A program made the translations under genes and the position numbers. Below, piece by piece: positions 23,898 through 61,756 of a DNA stretch of 64,000 bases. Under the pieces are notes generated by a model. The model made no database searches, was not told the DNA's origin, and saw only the letters and a list, made by a program, of their open reading frames with translations. Source of the stretch: Eubacterium sp. (GTDB lineage: Bacteria; Bacillota; Clostridia; Oscillospirales; Acutalibacteraceae); assembly GCA_017445905.1 (NCBI GenBank), contig JAFSRX010000052.1:1-64000 (forward strand). The letters run 5' to 3'. Numbering within the stretch: position 1 is the stretch's first letter; every line of letters starts with the position of its first letter.

Positions 23898-23939
23898 ACT
23901 AATTACTGTAAATTAAATATTGACCTATTTAAAGACTTT

Positions 23940-24190
23940 GAAGCAGAAAAAGATTTTTCACTTTAGTTTAAGAGAGTCAGCGGTTGGTGTAAGCTGATAC
24001 AGGGTGTTTAATGTATAGCTCTCTGCGGAGTTGATGCGCTGAACAGAGATTAATAGGCGCACCCGCTTAACTGCGTTATCGGTTGAGGCATTGTTTGATG
24101 CTAAAGGGCGGCTGACCTTTGCCGCTGAAATAGGGTGGTACCGCGTTTTTAACGCCCCTATACTTTTATAGTGTAGGGGCTTTGTTTTAT
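23940..24190 (+). promoter_or_regulatory. T-box riboswitch (leucine, inferred) upstream of leuA
   Basis: The T-box core AGGGTGGTACCGCG lies at 24132-24145. It is directly followed by a terminator hairpin (24154-24160 pairing with 24174-24180, plus partial extension) and TTTGTTTT. Upstream, GAGAG...CTCTC encloses a small hairpin with GGTTGGTG, as expected of Stem I and its distal loop. Uncharged tRNA binding should favour the antiterminator and so switch on leuAB. The specifier codon could not be fixed by eye; leucine is inferred from the downstream genes. Confidence 0.88.
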
Positions 24191-53355: not shown

Positions 53356-54044
53356 TGTTTACTTCTTAGTTGTAACCGTTTTGCTTGCTGACCAAGCTGA
53401 ATAATACTTAGTTCCCGAAATAGTCTTATATGTTCTGATTCTTACATAGTATTTTTTCTTTGCCGTTAATTTCTTAACAGTTGTTTTAACTGTGCTGTTC
53501 TTTGAAACGGTTACTGATTTCTTATTCTTTGTGAATTTTGAATCAGTTGCATACTGGATTTCATAACCCGTTGTCTTAGTTGCCTGCTTCTTCCAGGTTG
53601 CAGTGAAGGATTTGCTTCCTGCTGTTACCTTTGAAAGAGTTGTTCCCTTCGGGTTAATTTTAAAGGTTTTTGAAATTGTACCTGAGTATGCATTAATACC
53701 CGTTATCTTAAGGGTTGCCTTGCCAACGCTCTTATTATTTGTGTAGGTTACTTTGTAATCTGTATCCTTTTTGAGCGTTTTGCTGCCGAGCTTAACTGTT
53801 ATGCTCTGAGTTAAGGCTTTGCCGGTGTAAGTTTTATCCTTAATGCCTGAAACAGTTGCTTTTGCAAGGCTTGTTTTCTTGAGCTTTGCAATTGCTTTTG
53901 TTTCTCTTGAAAGTTCTTCACCACATACTGAGCAATATACAACCTCATCATATGAACCTGCTTTGTCATAGGTTGCCTTTACTTCGTTTTCTTTAACCGC
54001 TGCAGCAGGAGTGTGGTCGGTTTTTGGAATTGTTTGAGTTTCAG
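53356..54044 (-). repeat. Long direct repeat, copy 2 (copy 1 at 50290-50976)
   Basis: About 680 bp at the 3' end of the 1413-aa gene is nearly identical in bases to 50290-50976 at the 3' end of the 1016-aa gene. The starts of the copies are about 3.07 kb apart. Long runs are identical even at third codon positions, which points to recent duplication or gene conversion. Confidence 0.85.
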
Positions 54045-57000
54045 TTGTTCCGCAAACCGTGCATACCACTGTTTTTTTACCTTCTTTAGTGCAGGTTGCA
54101 TTTTCTGTTATTTCTTTATCCTGCCAGATATGTTTACATCCTTCTATCTTGCCGTCGGTGCAATTTATTGTCACGCTTTTTTTTATGCTTGTTGCATATT
54201 GGGCAATGTTTTTCCACTCTTCTATTGTTCCGTTATACGTTATTGTTTTCAAAGCATTACAGTTTTCAAAAGCATAAGAATTGAAAGCATTATCTATTGA
54301 ATGAGGGATTGTGACGCTTTCTAATGAAGAATAATTGCGTATCGCATAAAACTCTTTTACACCCTCTGATACAACCATGTTTTTAACTGTGCTGTTACTA
54401 TATCTAAAATCTAAACAATATACATCTATATCAGCGATTTTTGCAGGAACAACAATATCAGTTTTATTTGAGTTACAGTCTTCAATTATGATACCCCCGT
54501 AATATGTGTTGTATCTGTAATCGAATTCATTATCAGGGGAATAAAGATCAGCATTAGAGCAATGAATTACTGCTTCATCAACTTTATCGGTGTACATATT
54601 AAACCAATCCATTGCGCTACCTGCAAAGTAAATATCAGTAAGCCCTTGGCAACCGCTGAACGAATAATTGTCAATGCTGATAACGCTCGAGGGAATTGTT
54701 AGTTCTGTTAATATATTTCCGGCACTATCAAATGCGCCTGAACAAATAGATTTTGTTCCTTCTTTAACAGTGTATTTTTCTCCTGCTTCTTCTTTTACTT
54801 CAACTAAATAATTGCTTACATAAAGAGCTCCGTTTTCCCAGTTACTTTCGTTCTTATAAAATTCTGTGTTGGAAAGAAGACTTGAATATATTCCCTTAAT
54901 ACCGTCCGCAATTGAAATTGAGGTTGTATTTTTATTAAATGCAAAACCGTAAACAATTTCGCTAACTGGTCTTCCGTCAATTTCCGATGGAATGTTAACC
55001 TCGGTTATGCCTTTTTTACATTCAAGAATAAAAACATTATTATTATAAACATAGTATATAAAATCGCCCTTGTTTAAATCTCCGTCTGAGCAATGTATTA
55101 CCTTTTCTGTCATACTGGGCAGGTAAACATTAGTGTAATATGTCCTAATTGCGGCAGCCTCATTTAAGGTTCCGTTATAATATACCTCTGATAAGTTGGG
55201 ACAGTTATCAATAAATCCTACATAATAAGAATACCAGTAGCCATTATCCCAGTCGTAATCTTCTTCCCTTGCATAATCAATATAATTCAAGCTTTTTGGA
55301 AGAGTAATTGTTTTCAGGTTTTCGCAATTAGAGAAAACGTATGAACCTAAGCGTTCAACACCCTCAGGAATAACAACATTTTCAATAGTGTTATTGTCTT
55401 TAAAAGTGTTTTTTAAAATTTCAGTAACCTGAACTTCGCCAATTGTTGCAGGAACGGTTACGTTTGAAGCATTGCCTGTGTATTCATAAATATATAGTTT
55501 TCCGCTATTGTTTACTGCATATTTAAACTCGTCTTCATTAAGATTGATATCCGAACAATGAATGGTTGCGAAGAAAACTGCGTTATCTTCGTTTTCATCA
55601 CTATAGTCGCCACCGTAGGAATATGACGCTGTTTCAAACCATTGTTTAGCTGTACCCCAAAAATAAATATCTTTTAAATCTGTGCAGTATAAAAATGCCC
55701 CTGGTTCTATCTTGGTAACGGAAGAAGGAATATTTATACTTTCTAAAACAGAGCCTATGAACGCATATTTTCCAATCGTTGTTACGCTGTTAGGAATAAC
55801 AGTTGATTTTCCTCCCAAAATAAGTTTATTTGTTTCAGTTTCAATAATTGCGTTACAGTTATCCCGGCTGTCGTACTTGAGGTTTGCACTGTCAACAGAA
55901 ATGCTTTCAAGATTTGAACAATTTCTAAATGAATATTCGTCTATCTCTTGAACGGAACTGCTGATAGTTATATTTGTTAACGATAAACAAGAATTAAATG
56001 CGCCTTCGATTCTTGAAACGGTTGAAGGAATTGTCGTGCTGCCACAGCCAAATATCATAGTATTTGTTTTAGTTTCTATAATTGCGTTACAATTATCTCT
56101 GCTGTCATAAACCGGATTGTTTTCTGAAACACTTATAGCAGTGATATACTTTGAATCATCAAAAGTCCAACGGTCAAAATCAGTAATACCGGCGCCAATT
56201 TTAATAGAATGAATATTTTCGCATTCGCGAAATGCCCAATCTGAAACGAAGGTTACGCTATCGGGAAATTCAATTGAAGTGAGGGTTTTGTTGTTTTTGA
56301 AAGATTCATCACTTATGCCTGTAACAGGAACTCCGCCAAGAGTATCTGGAATAACAACATTTGCGCTTTTTCCTTTGTATTTTTTTACATACGCTTCGGT
56401 TTTATCACTATTCAGAGAATATTGATAATCGCCTTCGTAATAGATTCCTTTATCGTTAATAATTCCGTCTGAGCAAAAAACTGTTGCACTTCTCAAATTT
56501 CTGTTATCGGAAGAATATTCTGAACATATACTAATCTGCTGCCACTGATCTTTTGTTCCTGAATAATTAACATAACTGAGATTTGAACAATTATTAAAGG
56601 AACTCTTAATCTCTTTTAATTCAGTTGTTGCGATGATATTTTCAAGGCTTTCGCAATTGTAAAAAGCGTTATTCTCAATAAGAGATACATTTGTTGCGAT
56701 GATATTTTCAAGGCTTTTGCAATTGTAAAAAGCGTCATTCTCAATAAGAGATACATTATTAAGATCAACGGATATAATTTTAGCTGAGCCGTAATCATCA
56801 TCATAAACGCCTTCAAAAGCAGACCATCCGATGGTTTTAGTTTCGTCTGGCACTTTATAGGTTGGACCTTCTTTTCCCATCGGATACTGAATAAGTATGC
56901 TTAAATCCTTGCTGAAAAGAACTCCGTCAACATCGGTATAATTGGGATTATCATCATCAACGGTTATTTGTTCTAAAGAAGGGCATCCATAACAAGGACT

Positions 57001-57600
57001 TGAAAGTTCTGTTAAAGTGGCAGGGAAACGCATGGAGATGAAGCCCGAACACGCTAATGCGTGGTCGCCGAGTTTTTCAAGATTTTTCAAATCAATTGAA
57101 GTGAGTTTAGGACATTTATAAAATGCTTCGCTTCCAATTTCCTTTATTGTTGATGGGAGAGTTACCTCCTCAAGAGATGAACAACTGCAGAAAGCTCCCT
57201 GATCAAGTGTATCAACGCCCTCAGGAATAACAACACTTTTTATATCTTCATTTTCGTAAAATGCGTAGTAACCTATCGCCTTGACAGGATAGCCATCTAT
57301 TTGAGACGGAATAACGATATCTGTTTTGTCGCCATTATAATCTGTTATAACTGCTCCGCCGTCTTCTCGGCTATATGTGTTGTATTCATAATTGAATTCT
57401 TCCCCACCCGCAGCTTCTTCAGCGGTGAATGCTTCATAATAGGTTGCACCCGGAGTGTCTATACTGATTTCATGCACTCCAACTTCAGCCGAAGGCACAT
57501 CACCCGAAGGTAATTCATCTGCAAACGCCTCAAACGGTAGCGCAGAAATTGCTGATATTATCATTAATAATGATAAAATAATTGATAAAGCTTTTTTCAT
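53359..57600 (-). CDS. Large BspA-like leucine-rich repeat surface protein
   Basis: 1413 aa from the ATG at 57600, preferred because AAGGAG lies 7 nt upstream and the signal peptide (MKKALSIILSLLMIISAISALPFEAFA) then starts normally. An in-frame ATG at 57621 overlaps the previous stop but lacks a ribosome site. Most of the protein (about 70-1190) is BspA/LRR_5 repeats grouped in several blocks, each starting with a YNxYxRxDGGAVITDYNGDKTDIV-like strand. One CxxC repeat and the same Ig/Fn3-like 170-residue tail as the neighbour close it. No sortase motif is seen. Confidence 0.88.
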   Translation of the reverse strand: MKKALSIILSLLMIISAISALPFEAFADELPSGDVPSAEVGVHEISIDTPGATYYEAFTAEEAAGGEEFNYEYNTYSREDGGAVITDYNGDKTDIVIPSQIDGYPVKAIGYYAFYENEDIKSVVIPEGVDTLDQGAFCSCSSLEEVTLPSTIKEIGSEAFYKCPKLTSIDLKNLEKLGDHALACSGFISMRFPATLTELSSPCYGCPSLEQITVDDDNPNYTDVDGVLFSKDLSILIQYPMGKEGPTYKVPDETKTIGWSAFEGVYDDDYGSAKIISVDLNNVSLIENDAFYNCKSLENIIATNVSLIENNAFYNCESLENIIATTELKEIKSSFNNCSNLSYVNYSGTKDQWQQISICSEYSSDNRNLRSATVFCSDGIINDKGIYYEGDYQYSLNSDKTEAYVKKYKGKSANVVIPDTLGGVPVTGISDESFKNNKTLTSIEFPDSVTFVSDWAFRECENIHSIKIGAGITDFDRWTFDDSKYITAISVSENNPVYDSRDNCNAIIETKTNTMIFGCGSTTIPSTVSRIEGAFNSCLSLTNITISSSVQEIDEYSFRNCSNLESISVDSANLKYDSRDNCNAIIETETNKLILGGKSTVIPNSVTTIGKYAFIGSVLESINIPSSVTKIEPGAFLYCTDLKDIYFWGTAKQWFETASYSYGGDYSDENEDNAVFFATIHCSDINLNEDEFKYAVNNSGKLYIYEYTGNASNVTVPATIGEVQVTEILKNTFKDNNTIENVVIPEGVERLGSYVFSNCENLKTITLPKSLNYIDYAREEDYDWDNGYWYSYYVGFIDNCPNLSEVYYNGTLNEAAAIRTYYTNVYLPSMTEKVIHCSDGDLNKGDFIYYVYNNNVFILECKKGITEVNIPSEIDGRPVSEIVYGFAFNKNTTSISIADGIKGIYSSLLSNTEFYKNESNWENGALYVSNYLVEVKEEAGEKYTVKEGTKSICSGAFDSAGNILTELTIPSSVISIDNYSFSGCQGLTDIYFAGSAMDWFNMYTDKVDEAVIHCSNADLYSPDNEFDYRYNTYYGGIIIEDCNSNKTDIVVPAKIADIDVYCLDFRYSNSTVKNMVVSEGVKEFYAIRNYSSLESVTIPHSIDNAFNSYAFENCNALKTITYNGTIEEWKNIAQYATSIKKSVTINCTDGKIEGCKHIWQDKEITENATCTKEGKKTVVCTVCGTTETQTIPKTDHTPAAAVKENEVKATYDKAGSYDEVVYCSVCGEELSRETKAIAKLKKTSLAKATVSGIKDKTYTGKALTQSITVKLGSKTLKKDTDYKVTYTNNKSVGKATLKITGINAYSGTISKTFKINPKGTTLSKVTAGSKSFTATWKKQATKTTGYEIQYATDSKFTKNKKSVTVSKNSTVKTTVKKLTAKKKYYVRIRTYKTISGTKYYSAWSASKTVTTKK
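56625..56756 (-). repeat. 66-bp tandem duplication of one LRR unit
   Basis: Bases 56625-56690 and 56691-56756 are nearly identical (two differences noticed). The protein reads VSLIENDAFYNCKSLENIIATN and then VSLIENNAFYNCESLENIIATT. The unit is exactly 22 codons, one leucine-rich repeat. Confidence 0.85.
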
Positions 57601-57617
57601 CGTTTTTCTCCTTTTTA

Positions 57618-58415
57618 TCATTTCTTAGTAGTAACAGTCTTTGAAGTGCTCCAAGCTGAATAATACTTTGTTCCGCTCACAGTTTTATATGTTCTGATTC
57701 TAACATAGTACTTTTTATTGCCCTTAAGCTTCTTAACGGTTACACTTGTTTTCTTAGCTCCCTTAACTGTCTTTTTCTTAGAAGTTTTTTTGGTAAAGCT
57801 TTTTGATGTTGAATACTGAATCTGATAGCCTGCAACGCTACTTTTTTTGTTCCATGTAGCTTTAAAGCTCTTTTTGCCTTTTGTAACCTTTTTTAGTGAA
57901 GTGAAGGTTGGAGCGTTGTAATGCGCCTTAACCTTTGTCAGCGGGTCATTGTTTCCCAAAGCATAAACCGCAAAATCAACAACGCCCTTCCACTGAGCTT
58001 TTGTTCCGCCGTAGTAAACATCTTTTAATGCAGTGCATCCAGCAAAAGCGCAGGCATTAATCGGACAATCCTGTTTATCATTTACGCTTTTCGGAATAGA
58101 TATCGTTTTCAGCTTACTGCAGTTTCCAAAAGTCCAATGTCCTATGTAATTAACGCCGTTTGGTATAACAACATTCACTATTTTTTTGTTATTTTGAAAA
58201 GCAAAATCGCCAATTGAGTTGACTTTATAATCTCCTATTTTTTCCGGAATAACAACAAAGGTATCGCTGCCTGTATATCCCGTTATTGAGGCACTTTTTC
58301 CTTTGGTTTCATACTTAAAACCATTGCTGCTTTTTGCACTTGCAGTGATAGATATCCCTGCTGCCATTGTTAATACAAGTGCGATTGATAATAAAACTGA
58401 TAGAACTTTTTTCAT
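57618..58415 (-). CDS. Small BspA-like secreted protein with Fn3-like tail
   Basis: 265 aa. The signal peptide is clear (MKKVLSVLLSIALVLTMAAGISITASA). Two to three LRR_5 units follow (VVIPNGVNYIGHWTFGNCSKLKTISIPKSV, CAFAGCTALKDVYYGG), then a Lys-rich Fn3-like module ending in YYVRIRTYKTVSGTKYYSAW and VTTKK, matching the tails of the two larger neighbours. It is the first gene of the three-gene operon; the next ATG lies 17 bp after its stop. It may represent the minimal unit from which the larger paralogues grew. Confidence 0.85.
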   Translation of the reverse strand: MKKVLSVLLSIALVLTMAAGISITASAKSSNGFKYETKGKSASITGYTGSDTFVVIPEKIGDYKVNSIGDFAFQNNKKIVNVVIPNGVNYIGHWTFGNCSKLKTISIPKSVNDKQDCPINACAFAGCTALKDVYYGGTKAQWKGVVDFAVYALGNNDPLTKVKAHYNAPTFTSLKKVTKGKKSFKATWNKKSSVAGYQIQYSTSKSFTKKTSKKKTVKGAKKTSVTVKKLKGNKKYYVRIRTYKTVSGTKYYSAWSTSKTVTTKK

Positions 58416-58728: not shown

Positions 58729-58795
58729 AAGTTTCGAGTTGTCGGGTGACACATTCACATTTGATTATTTTTTCGACGAACAACACATACCGTCA

Positions 58796-58866
58796 AATCA
58801 ATGGGGACACACCTCTGAGCGTTGTCGTTGCAAAACGCATTCTGTGGAGGAATGTCCCCATTGATT
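58796..58866. repeat. Inverted repeat with GGGGACA arms
   Basis: The 14-bp arms 58796-58809 and 58853-58866 are perfect reverse complements spaced by 43 bp. The arms share the GGGGAC core with palindromes at 32688 and 48001. The spacer has CACCTC near one arm and GAGG near the other, which could extend pairing. Confidence 0.75.
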
Positions 58867-58993
58867 CGAGGGAATGCACCACGCATAACGCCCCACGCGT
58901 CACTTATTGTCTGAGCGCTTGCGCGAGTAACCAACAACTCCGACCAACGGTTCCCAAAATTTGTTTTCGGCTTGGAGCTCGTCAATTCAAACT

Positions 58994-59118
58994 CCGTGAT
59001 TGAAACATTTTGAAAGCAAAATGCTATTAATCACTCCGATTGTATTTCCTCTTCAAATCAAAATTCGGCAATGCCTGCTTTTTGATTTGGTTGTTGACCA
59101 TTCGGCAGTTCTTCGTCC
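58994..59118. repeat. Structured tandem element, copy A
   Basis: It starts with CCGTGATT. The first hairpin is CATTTTG/CAAAATG (59006-59012, 59017-59023) closed outside by GTGATT/AATCAC (58996-59001, 59029-59034). The second is CAAATCAAAA/TTTTGATTTG (59054-59063, 59080-59089). A third small one is GGT/ACC. It aligns with copy B at an offset of 134 bp. Confidence 0.7.
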
Positions 59119-59127
59119 AAAGATAAT

Positions 59128-59249
59128 CCGCGATTGGAGCATATCGTGTTTAACGATATGCTAATAATCGCTCCATACCTTTCTCCTCTCAAATCAAAAT
59201 GTTTTGCATTTTGATTTGTTTACCGATGCGGATACTTGTACCGCATCGG
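59128..59249. repeat. Structured tandem element, copy B
   Basis: Same order as copy A with changed but still paired stems: GCATATCGT/ACGATATGC (59139-59147, 59153-59161), GCGATT/AATCGC outside, a 12-bp perfect stem 59190-59201 with 59207-59218, and CCGATGCGG/CCGCATCGG (59223-59231, 59241-59249). CTAWTAATCRCTCC and CCTCTnCAAATCAAAAT are shared with copy A. Confidence 0.7.
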
Positions 59250-59255
59250 AGAGGA

Positions 59256-59334
59256 AAAACATCCGCAGTTATTATTATATGTTGCTCAAATTAAATAACT
59301 AAGAGCAATATATTTCAATCACGCAGGATGTTTT
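59256..59334. repeat. Nested long hairpin
   Basis: AAAACATCC (59256-59264) pairs with GGATGTTTT (59326-59334), and inside it TTGCTC (59282-59287) pairs with GAGCAA (59303-59308), with ATAT on both flanks of the inner stem. With the elements at 58796-59249 it makes the gap from 58729 to 59380 almost wholly palindromic, and no gene was seen in it. Confidence 0.65.
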
Positions 59335-59380
59335 GACGAGGGAGCGGTCGCAAACGAACCAGCGCTCGGGGCTCGCAACT

Positions 59381-60835: not shown

Positions 60836-60862
60836 TTTGTAAGCAAATACAAGGTGATACAT

Positions 60863-61756
60863 ATGAGCATTAATTTAACAAACTGGATGAAGGATATTGA
60901 TTCCGATAAAAAACTGTTTTCTCTTAACATTCCCGGAACGCATGATGCCGCTGCGCGCTATGTTCAATATGCGCATATTGCAAAATGCCAGGATTTGAGC
61001 ATATACGATCAGCTTTGCATCGGCGTTCGTGCTCTTGATATAAGAGTTATGGCAGAGGAAAACAGGCTTTTGATGATTCACTCTATTGCAAAGGTTTTCT
61101 GCACGGCGCGCCAGCCCAAGCTCCATATGGATTTAGAATATGTTTTAACTCAAATATATGCTTTTCTTGATGAAAACCCGAGCGAAGCAGTAATTTTTCA
61201 GTTTAAAAACGATTCGGGCAAGGATTTTGAAAAGAGCTTCGATAATCTTTTCAACACATATATCAAGCCCAACCAAAAAAGATGGTATCTGAAAAACGAA
61301 TGCCCGACACTTGGCGAGGCAAGAGGTAAAATTGTTTTAATCCGCCGCTGTCTTATGGATGAAAACAACGAGGAATACACCGACGAAACCAGCGGAATTG
61401 ATTTTTCCTCCTGGGTTGAGCAAACTGAAATGATTCCCGATCCTCTGATCCTGAAAACAGGTGGTAAGGACAGCGCTGAGTTTATTATTCAGGATAGATT
61501 CAAATATAAAGCTGAGGATAAGTGGGCTGCCTGCATAAAACCTTTTATTCAGAATCTCAAACCTTTTGAAAAGCAATATGTTATCTGCTATTTTTCAACC
61601 TCGGGCGGACTTGCAGGACCTAAGAAGAATGCTCAGCTTCTTAATAATGCTTTTATCAATTTCCCTATTCAAAGGGGAATTAATCTCGGAACAGTTTATC
61701 TTGATTTTCCAAGTAAAAGAATAACAACAAAGATTATAGAGAGTAATAGATTATGA
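60863..61756 (+). CDS. PI-PLC-like phosphodiesterase
   Basis: 297 aa from the ATG at 60863, with AAGGTGAT just before it. NIPGTHDAA carries the first catalytic His (H27), followed by LCIGVRALDIRV and the second His in LLMIHSI, as in phosphatidylinositol-specific phospholipase C X domains. SEAVIFQFKND and a C-terminal LGTVYLDFPS complete the barrel. Known bacterial PI-PLCs are secreted, but this one has no signal peptide, so an intracellular substrate is likely. Its stop overlaps the PFK start by 4 bp. Confidence 0.8.
   Translation: MSINLTNWMKDIDSDKKLFSLNIPGTHDAAARYVQYAHIAKCQDLSIYDQLCIGVRALDIRVMAEENRLLMIHSIAKVFCTARQPKLHMDLEYVLTQIYAFLDENPSEAVIFQFKNDSGKDFEKSFDNLFNTYIKPNQKRWYLKNECPTLGEARGKIVLIRRCLMDENNEEYTDETSGIDFSSWVEQTEMIPDPLILKTGGKDSAEFIIQDRFKYKAEDKWAACIKPFIQNLKPFEKQYVICYFSTSGGLAGPKKNAQLLNNAFINFPIQRGINLGTVYLDFPSKRITTKIIESNRL

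Follow-up and report, generated by a model that had tools for sequence, protein, structure and literature searches.

A dispersed family of structured hairpin repeats in Clostridia, likely mobile, that can carry a complement to its insertion site

Within the window (the whole 64,000-nucleotide stretch of Eubacterium DNA that was analyzed), two neighboring stretches keep the same base pairing with different sequences. What kind of element is maintained in this way? The original prediction described a tandem pair of structured copies and suggested selection on a folded RNA or a DNA hairpin. The stems that it named are present: in copy A, GTGATT (58996-59001) faces AATCAC (59029-59034) and CATTTTG (59006-59012) faces CAAAATG (59017-59023), while in copy B the corresponding arms are GCGATT (59130-59135) with AATCGC (59166-59171) and CATATCGT (59140-59147) with ACGATATG (59153-59160). 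The conserved unpaired blocks CTAWTAATCRCTCC and CCTCT..CAAATCAAAAT are there as well. The bounds of the copies, given as 58994-59118 and 59128-59249, had to be moved: the units start earlier, at TCGTC, and A runs from 58979 to 59089 and B from 59113 to 59218. A and B do point in the same direction, but they are not simply a tandem pair. They belong to a dispersed family, they lie inside another repeat (repeat H, discussed below), and a third, inverted unit beside them had been overlooked (Table 1). With A or B, the inverted unit makes an inverted doublet ending in GACGAG. The loop ATACTTGTA of the adjoining hairpin is found again, on different stems, at L035, L039, L041, and L100. We conclude that the units are a real dispersed family of structured repeats, and likely a mobile one.

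Table 1. Features around the paired copies, in window coordinates. R1 is the family model; A and B are 2 of its 22 training rows, so their scores of 79.6 and 79.7 bits are not independent evidence.
Feature	Position	Strand	Evidence
Repeat H, left piece, GACCAACGGTTCCCAAAATTTGTTTTCGGCTTGGAG	58942..58977	+	near-identical unit-free sequence in L032; shorter match in L039
Unit A, structured core, TCGTC..TCCTCTT on + strand	58979..59053	-	R1 match 1-75, 79.6 bits; alignment A1
Unit A, second hairpin (P4), CAAATCAAAA..TTTTGATTTG	59054..59089		sequence; direct repeats D1 and D2 with B
Repeat H, middle piece between A and B, TTGACCATTCGGCAGTTC	59094..59111	+	59094-59113 equals L032 exactly over 20 nt
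Unit B, structured core, left arm	59113..59190	-	R1 match 1-75, 79.7 bits
Unit B, second hairpin (P4), CAAATCAAAATG..CATTTTGATTTG, arms fully complementary	59190..59218		inverted repeat I5
Other second-hairpin type, CCGATGCGG-ATACTTGTA-CCGCATCGG, part of inverted unit	59223..59249		sequence
Third unit, inverted	59249..59339	+	R1 match 1-75, 65.9 bits; inverted repeat I1 with 58978-59012
Repeat H, right piece, GAGCGGTCGCAAACGAACC	59342..59360	+	comparison with L032, L099, L102

The common fold was derived from 22 units of the same genome (alignment A1), all of which start with TCGTC. The core is about 75 nt long and has an outer helix adjoining TCGTC and TCCTCTC, a middle helix that is GYGATT/AATCRC in most of the rows, and an inner helix of variable sequence; outside the core is a second hairpin, of which there are at least three sequence types. 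RNAalifold found the fold unaided, with a two-sided change in at least one row at 16 of 23 pairs. When the structure was assigned by hand, 92.9% of the cells in the 22-row alignment were paired and, among these related copies, 17 of 25 pairs showed two-sided changes. The prediction that stem changes compensate each other is borne out: in 71 cells both partners changed, and in none did a single partner change, counted over the 22 related rows with kinship ignored. None of 500 shuffles reached the observed values for pairing or for two-sided change (the number of further pair types was reached in 11 of 500), and shifting the partner columns by 1-3 lowered pairing to 35-44%. Across 101 distinct units (132, less 5 duplicates and 26 rows that were partial or on the opposite strand), 2,250 of 2,499 cells were Watson-Crick pairs. 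The family is thus a clear example of repeats with covarying stems.

The mismatches also say something about which strand folds. On the plus strand, the 101 units have 102 A.C or C.A cells and 25 G.T cells, where 235 and 142 would be expected under independence; the 22 rows from the same genome have 15 and 1. An A.C cell becomes G.T when the opposite strand is read, which makes 5'-hairpin-GAGAGGA-core-GACGA-3' the more probable folding strand. By column, 12 lean toward this strand and 5 toward the other, in copies that are related and, for the larger alignment, fitted to the model. For unit A, the mismatches are accordingly easier to accommodate in a fold of the minus strand, as G.T pairs.

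The original prediction could not name an RNA family, and neither can we. Using both gathering and relaxed thresholds, no Rfam family rose above its cut-off in this region, and the units at 20 other loci had no family match either. We also considered a tRNA or tmRNA identity, and there was none in the window. Elsewhere, the window does contain a T-box leader (23929-24162, 119.3 bits).

How large is the family? R1 has 66 matches in the same genome. Of these, 42 are full length, with 41 at 65 bits or more and one at 26.7 bits; the remaining 24 are partial and lie on the opposite strand of a full match. Five close inverted doublets account for 10 of the 42 units and the rest are single or tandem. 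Related genomes also contain homologues with paired stems: at E = 0.01, 20 of 36 genomes of the same genus have matches, and the counts among these relatives range from 0 to 29. Copies were found beyond A and B, both genome-wide and in other genomes. Beyond the genus, 1 of 23 genomes had a weak match (E = 0.01), and an order-wide search at E = 1e-5 found matches in 5 of 295 genomes, our own included, using stricter filters that lose weak matches. The three that come from other genera span the model from end to end at 41-48 bits. On several contigs of the same genome (G000 C6, C8, C22, C23, C35, C49, C50, C51, C66, C67, and C68), a unit is no more than about 200 bases from the contig end, so the repeat probably breaks assemblies and some copies may have escaped the count.

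Scanning named genomes with a pattern, which may omit near relatives of our genome, returned 77 contig stretches. Their titles were Eubacterium, Oscillospiraceae, Ruminococcaceae, Clostridiales, and Clostridia, with one Melainabacteria, and many were rumen or gut samples. By blastn, a distant relative from G135 matched two plasmid records (Subdoligranulum variabile and Pusillibacter faecalis) and four unannotated fecal phage records. R1 found nothing at E = 0.01 on either whole plasmid record despite these blastn matches, so the model misses distant members. On a Subdoligranulum record (L246, OY725877.1), a distant relative of the unit is about 1.8 kb from a predicted aadE gene. A search of phage records with the window sequence gave no match. 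Two patterns found no viral contig, and a looser pattern found one, of which only the surroundings of the unit were read. We found no description of the family in the literature that we searched, which did not extend to supplementary candidate lists (e.g., PMC8040213).

We collected 132 distinct units, of which 115 had enough flanking sequence to be scored for duplication. The left flank recurs beyond the unit (score of at least 11) for 45 of the 115, as compared to 12 of 345 mispaired controls, and for 36 of these the unit boundary is precisely where the match stops. The TCGTC/GACGA boundary is found at many sites that are otherwise unrelated. As judged by eye, the recurring sites lie at both ends of tRNA genes (those at the 3' end mostly fall within the T loop or close to the T stem), in 5S rRNA, and at the 3' ends of rpsI, rpsU, and rubrerythrin. 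Another recurring site is the parS-like GTTTCACGTGAAAC, in the vicinity of soj/spo0J-like genes. Of 20 loci submitted to Rfam, 15 had a tRNA or 5S rRNA match and L030, L035, L096, L152, and L182 did not; Pfam confirmed S9, S21, and rubrerythrin as targets. The ORFs that recur beside units are these target genes or their neighbors, as far as we recognized them by eye. At L096 (2816-3247), three near-identical tandem units, 178 bp apart and each with a terminator and a tRNA end, lie downstream of a gene that looks by eye like tRNA-Ser, without an Rfam match.

At rpsI, 6 of 21 loci had surroundings that were readable with the motif we used. In G010, a segment of 73 bp that starts at the insertion point and reaches the T run of the terminator is exactly repeated around 130 bp, and in G009 there is neither a unit nor a duplication. 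Elsewhere, the repeated terminators often differ between the duplicated pieces, so many duplications are old or not simple. At the window's own units we found no flank duplication: A stays under 11, and the 11 that B reaches arises in the second hairpins. Other elements use some of the same sites. A second structured repeat family (family X, with a ACAGTCCRCCGGACTGT hairpin; L041, L039, L211, and L220) occupies the sites in tRNA-Tyr, tRNA-Ser, and rpsI that the units use, and there too a copy of the 3' end of the gene comes after the insertion. Also, at L239 in G008, an element of about 16 kb with integrase-like and relaxase-like ORFs (by eye) sits at rpsI and the rpsI end is repeated, so larger elements make use of this gene end too.

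Could the unit instead be a transcribed structured RNA, such as a processing or stability element of pre-tRNAs and mRNA 3' regions, whose spread is incidental? The covariation is strong, the wobble signal favors one strand, and many copies at gene 3' ends are in the gene's sense. However, the copies at tRNA 5' ends are antisense to the tRNA, inverted doublets would expose both strands, the flank duplications are marks of insertion, and relatives from the same genus differ greatly in their number of matches. We think that this explanation is fairly unlikely. As for the original choice between a folded RNA and a DNA hairpin, the pairing is indeed kept, but the insertion marks at other copies favor a mobile element over a stand-alone RNA.

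The choice of sites could also point to a site-specific recombinase of the tyrosine type, for which the unit would be a minimal integrative element and the duplicated gene 3' end and terminator the attachment site. tRNA and rpsI 3' ends are classical attachment sites, and one relative, G008, has the large rpsI element with its repeated GTTCTCAAAGAGATAA. On the other hand, that repeat begins about 10 nt from the unit boundary, and the unit is also found at tRNA 5' ends, at parS-like sites, and in repeat H, which is a varied list for one recombinase. A tyrosine recombinase seems quite improbable to us.

The surprising part of the family is its long natural complement to the target. At many gene 3' ends, read in the direction of GACGA, there is an inverted copy of the target, reaching across the insertion point, between the terminator and the second hairpin. 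For scoring, we used 40 units with a boundary-anchored duplication, of which 34 had a long enough spacer, and we required a score of at least 9, spanning the insertion point, with mismatches counted against. A complement of 11-21 nt was found at 13 of 34 sites and in 4 of 384 mispaired controls. The 13 sites all belong to the 25 other than tRNA 5' ends and parS (the remaining 12 of the 25 have none), while 0 of 9 scored tRNA-5'-end and parS sites had one. Higher scores at L121, L152, L120, and L170 miss the insertion point and come from the terminator. The complements at five rpsI sites scored 11, 13, 13, 15, and 14 with the variant of their own host, whereas with other hosts' variants they scored 4-8 and, in one case, 11; three of the five sites share one variant, so there are at most three independent variants. 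This fit to the host may mean that the complement was copied at insertion or that it adapted later, and the data are compatible with either.

Given these observations, we give about an even chance to the following explanation: the hairpin element of ~75 bases is a non-autonomous piece of mobile DNA, and an enzyme that is encoded elsewhere is predicted to move it in the form of a folded single strand. We infer the single-strand step from the fold, the strand signal, the fixed end, and the complement. One strand (the minus strand of the window for A and B), 5'-second hairpin-GAGAGGA-core-GACGA-3', would be recognized by its fold, the end after GACGA would be joined to the target at a fixed point, and the complementary stretch would pair with the target before or during joining. 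There is also a small chance, no better than unlikely, of something more elaborate: that the element carries its own address of 11-21 nt across the insertion point, renewed or adapted for each host variant, and that a protein that recognizes nothing but the fold homes into conserved genes and restores them by duplicating the gene end.

The inverted target copies can be read in other ways. Beside terminators, they resemble the products of fold-back synthesis, and the units form a patchwork with other repeats, so the family might have spread passively by template switching and hairpin recombination, with no dedicated enzyme. It is difficult to reconcile this with a constant TCGTC/GACGA boundary at so many unrelated sites, and we rate passive spread as quite unlikely as well. 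Copying through RNA by target-primed reverse transcription, as in a bacterial analogue of SINEs, would explain the precise 3' end, the variable 5' end, the variable target duplications, and the inverted target copies at the 5' junction, but it is very unlikely, as our genome has no match to RVT_1 and only 3 of 13 unit-bearing genomes searched have one (several of these genomes are incomplete).

If the units are mobile DNA moved by an enzyme encoded elsewhere, which enzyme might it be? Our first candidate is an HUH/Y1 transposase of the REP-associated kind. The genome that contains the window encodes two Y1 proteins, which score 81.2 and 79.6 bits against the model for REP-associated transposases (cut-off 80). 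Their loci (L205 and L206) are adjoined by other palindromes, not by units; on C42 the closest unit is some 12 kb from the RAYT gene, and C65 had no unit match. Across genomes, REP-type Y1 proteins track the units only as a weak link: at 1e-3, they are found in 11 of 15 unit-bearing genomes and in 5 of 11 unit-free genomes, and G034 has 23 unit matches and no REP-type Y1 match. Among the Y1 genes of relatives, the ORF was found in 8 of 10 stretches, with no unit within about 250 bp; at L261 (G007 C40), a unit is about 1.5 kb from a Y1 gene. We saw no pair of units bracketing a transposase among the stretches that we annotated. At L174, two units 4 kb apart point the same way and enclose ORFs that look unrelated, and L173 has two doublets 4 kb apart around an ORF that resembles a surface protein. 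Nor did we see a replication-strand bias: relative to the leading strand, which was assigned solely by gene direction and local GC skew, orientations split 12 to 10 (22 usable of 36 sites).

Some other types of elements can be set aside. A TnpB/OMEGA guide RNA does not fit, as there is no TnpB match in the window's genome and the only one among 37 genomes is in G027, which itself has no unit match. A group II intron or another element borne by a reverse transcriptase was rejected because of the missing RVT_1 and because the units have no Rfam match. For a classical MITE, we would not expect units that are mostly single arms, or matching flanks of very different lengths, with an exact 73 bp just once. 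Excerpts of PMC2229807 describe Rickettsia palindromic elements (RPE), which are also found in RNA genes, Correia/NEMIS, and other MITEs; like our units, these are small structured insertions, but we saw neither TA ends nor a fixed short duplication.

Three known systems invite closer comparison. First, REPs and REPINs with their RAYTs are, in excerpts of PMC3116915 and PMC8266576, short and present in many copies, as singlets and inverted doublets, and are predicted to form single-strand hairpins. Our family shares these features, and RAYT-type genes are present in its genome. It differs in that the core has three helices plus the second hairpin, no unit lies beside the RAYT genes, targets are duplicated, and insertions are in conserved genes. 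Also, the GTAG motif at the foot of the REP palindrome (excerpt of PMC8266576) has no counterpart in the 22 rows of A1. Second, YPAL/RU-2 of Yersinia is a miniature palindromic element with target duplications that vary from 3 to 26 bp and with targets at or adjoining dyad symmetry (excerpt of PMC2229807). Our family resembles it in form, in the varying size of its duplications, and in its kind of target, but, comparing by description, it has a 73-bp duplication, and the excerpt does not mention a target complement for YPAL. Third, in IS608 (IS200/IS605), the DNA is a folded single strand and the joining site is set by pairing with element DNA; the natural pairing is 4 nt, and pairing that was artificially lengthened to 12 or 17 nt works in vitro (excerpt of PMC5934647). 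Our family may likewise use a folded single strand and pairing of the target with element DNA, although a complement was found at only some of the scored sites; it differs in its natural complement of 11-21 nt, its duplication, and its lack of a visible strand bias. By analogy, the copy pattern would work like REPINs and YPAL and the target pairing like IS608. We do not claim membership in any of these groups, since a neighboring RAYT, the foot motif, a short fixed duplication, and a strand preference were not found.

If the complement does steer insertion, then nature already uses the long base-pair targeting that was engineered into IS608. Even without targeting, the family shows that genes for tRNA, rRNA, and ribosomal proteins serve as insertion sites in many Clostridia that are uncultured. 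And predictors of structured RNAs could take the element for an RNA gene.

Finally, what explains the layout in the window? Repeat H has the form GACCAACGGTTCCCAAAATTTGTT..GCCGACAAATTTTGACC..CAAACGAACC. It is found without units at L032, L034, and L039 and with units at the identical spot at L099 and L102, which are from two relatives. At L102, the middle piece is bracketed by one left unit and one inverted unit. The window shows this arrangement with B in addition and, going by this comparison, B would seem to have arrived later. The units may have entered repeat H or may have travelled with it, and either would give a tandem-plus-inverted layout; the order is our reading of these loci. Just to the left is a separate REP-like hairpin (ATCAATGGGGACA..TGTCCCCATTGAT, 58786-58876). 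Pieces of it are found again at L036, L038, L040, and L043, and similar palindromes with GGGGAC flank the RAYT gene at L206. Among the genes nearby, 53359-58415 holds two adjacent long ORFs that look secreted, the second with BspA-type leucine-rich repeats (LRR_5), and a PI-PLC-X domain protein (60854-61756) lies between a PHP-domain protein and phosphofructokinase.
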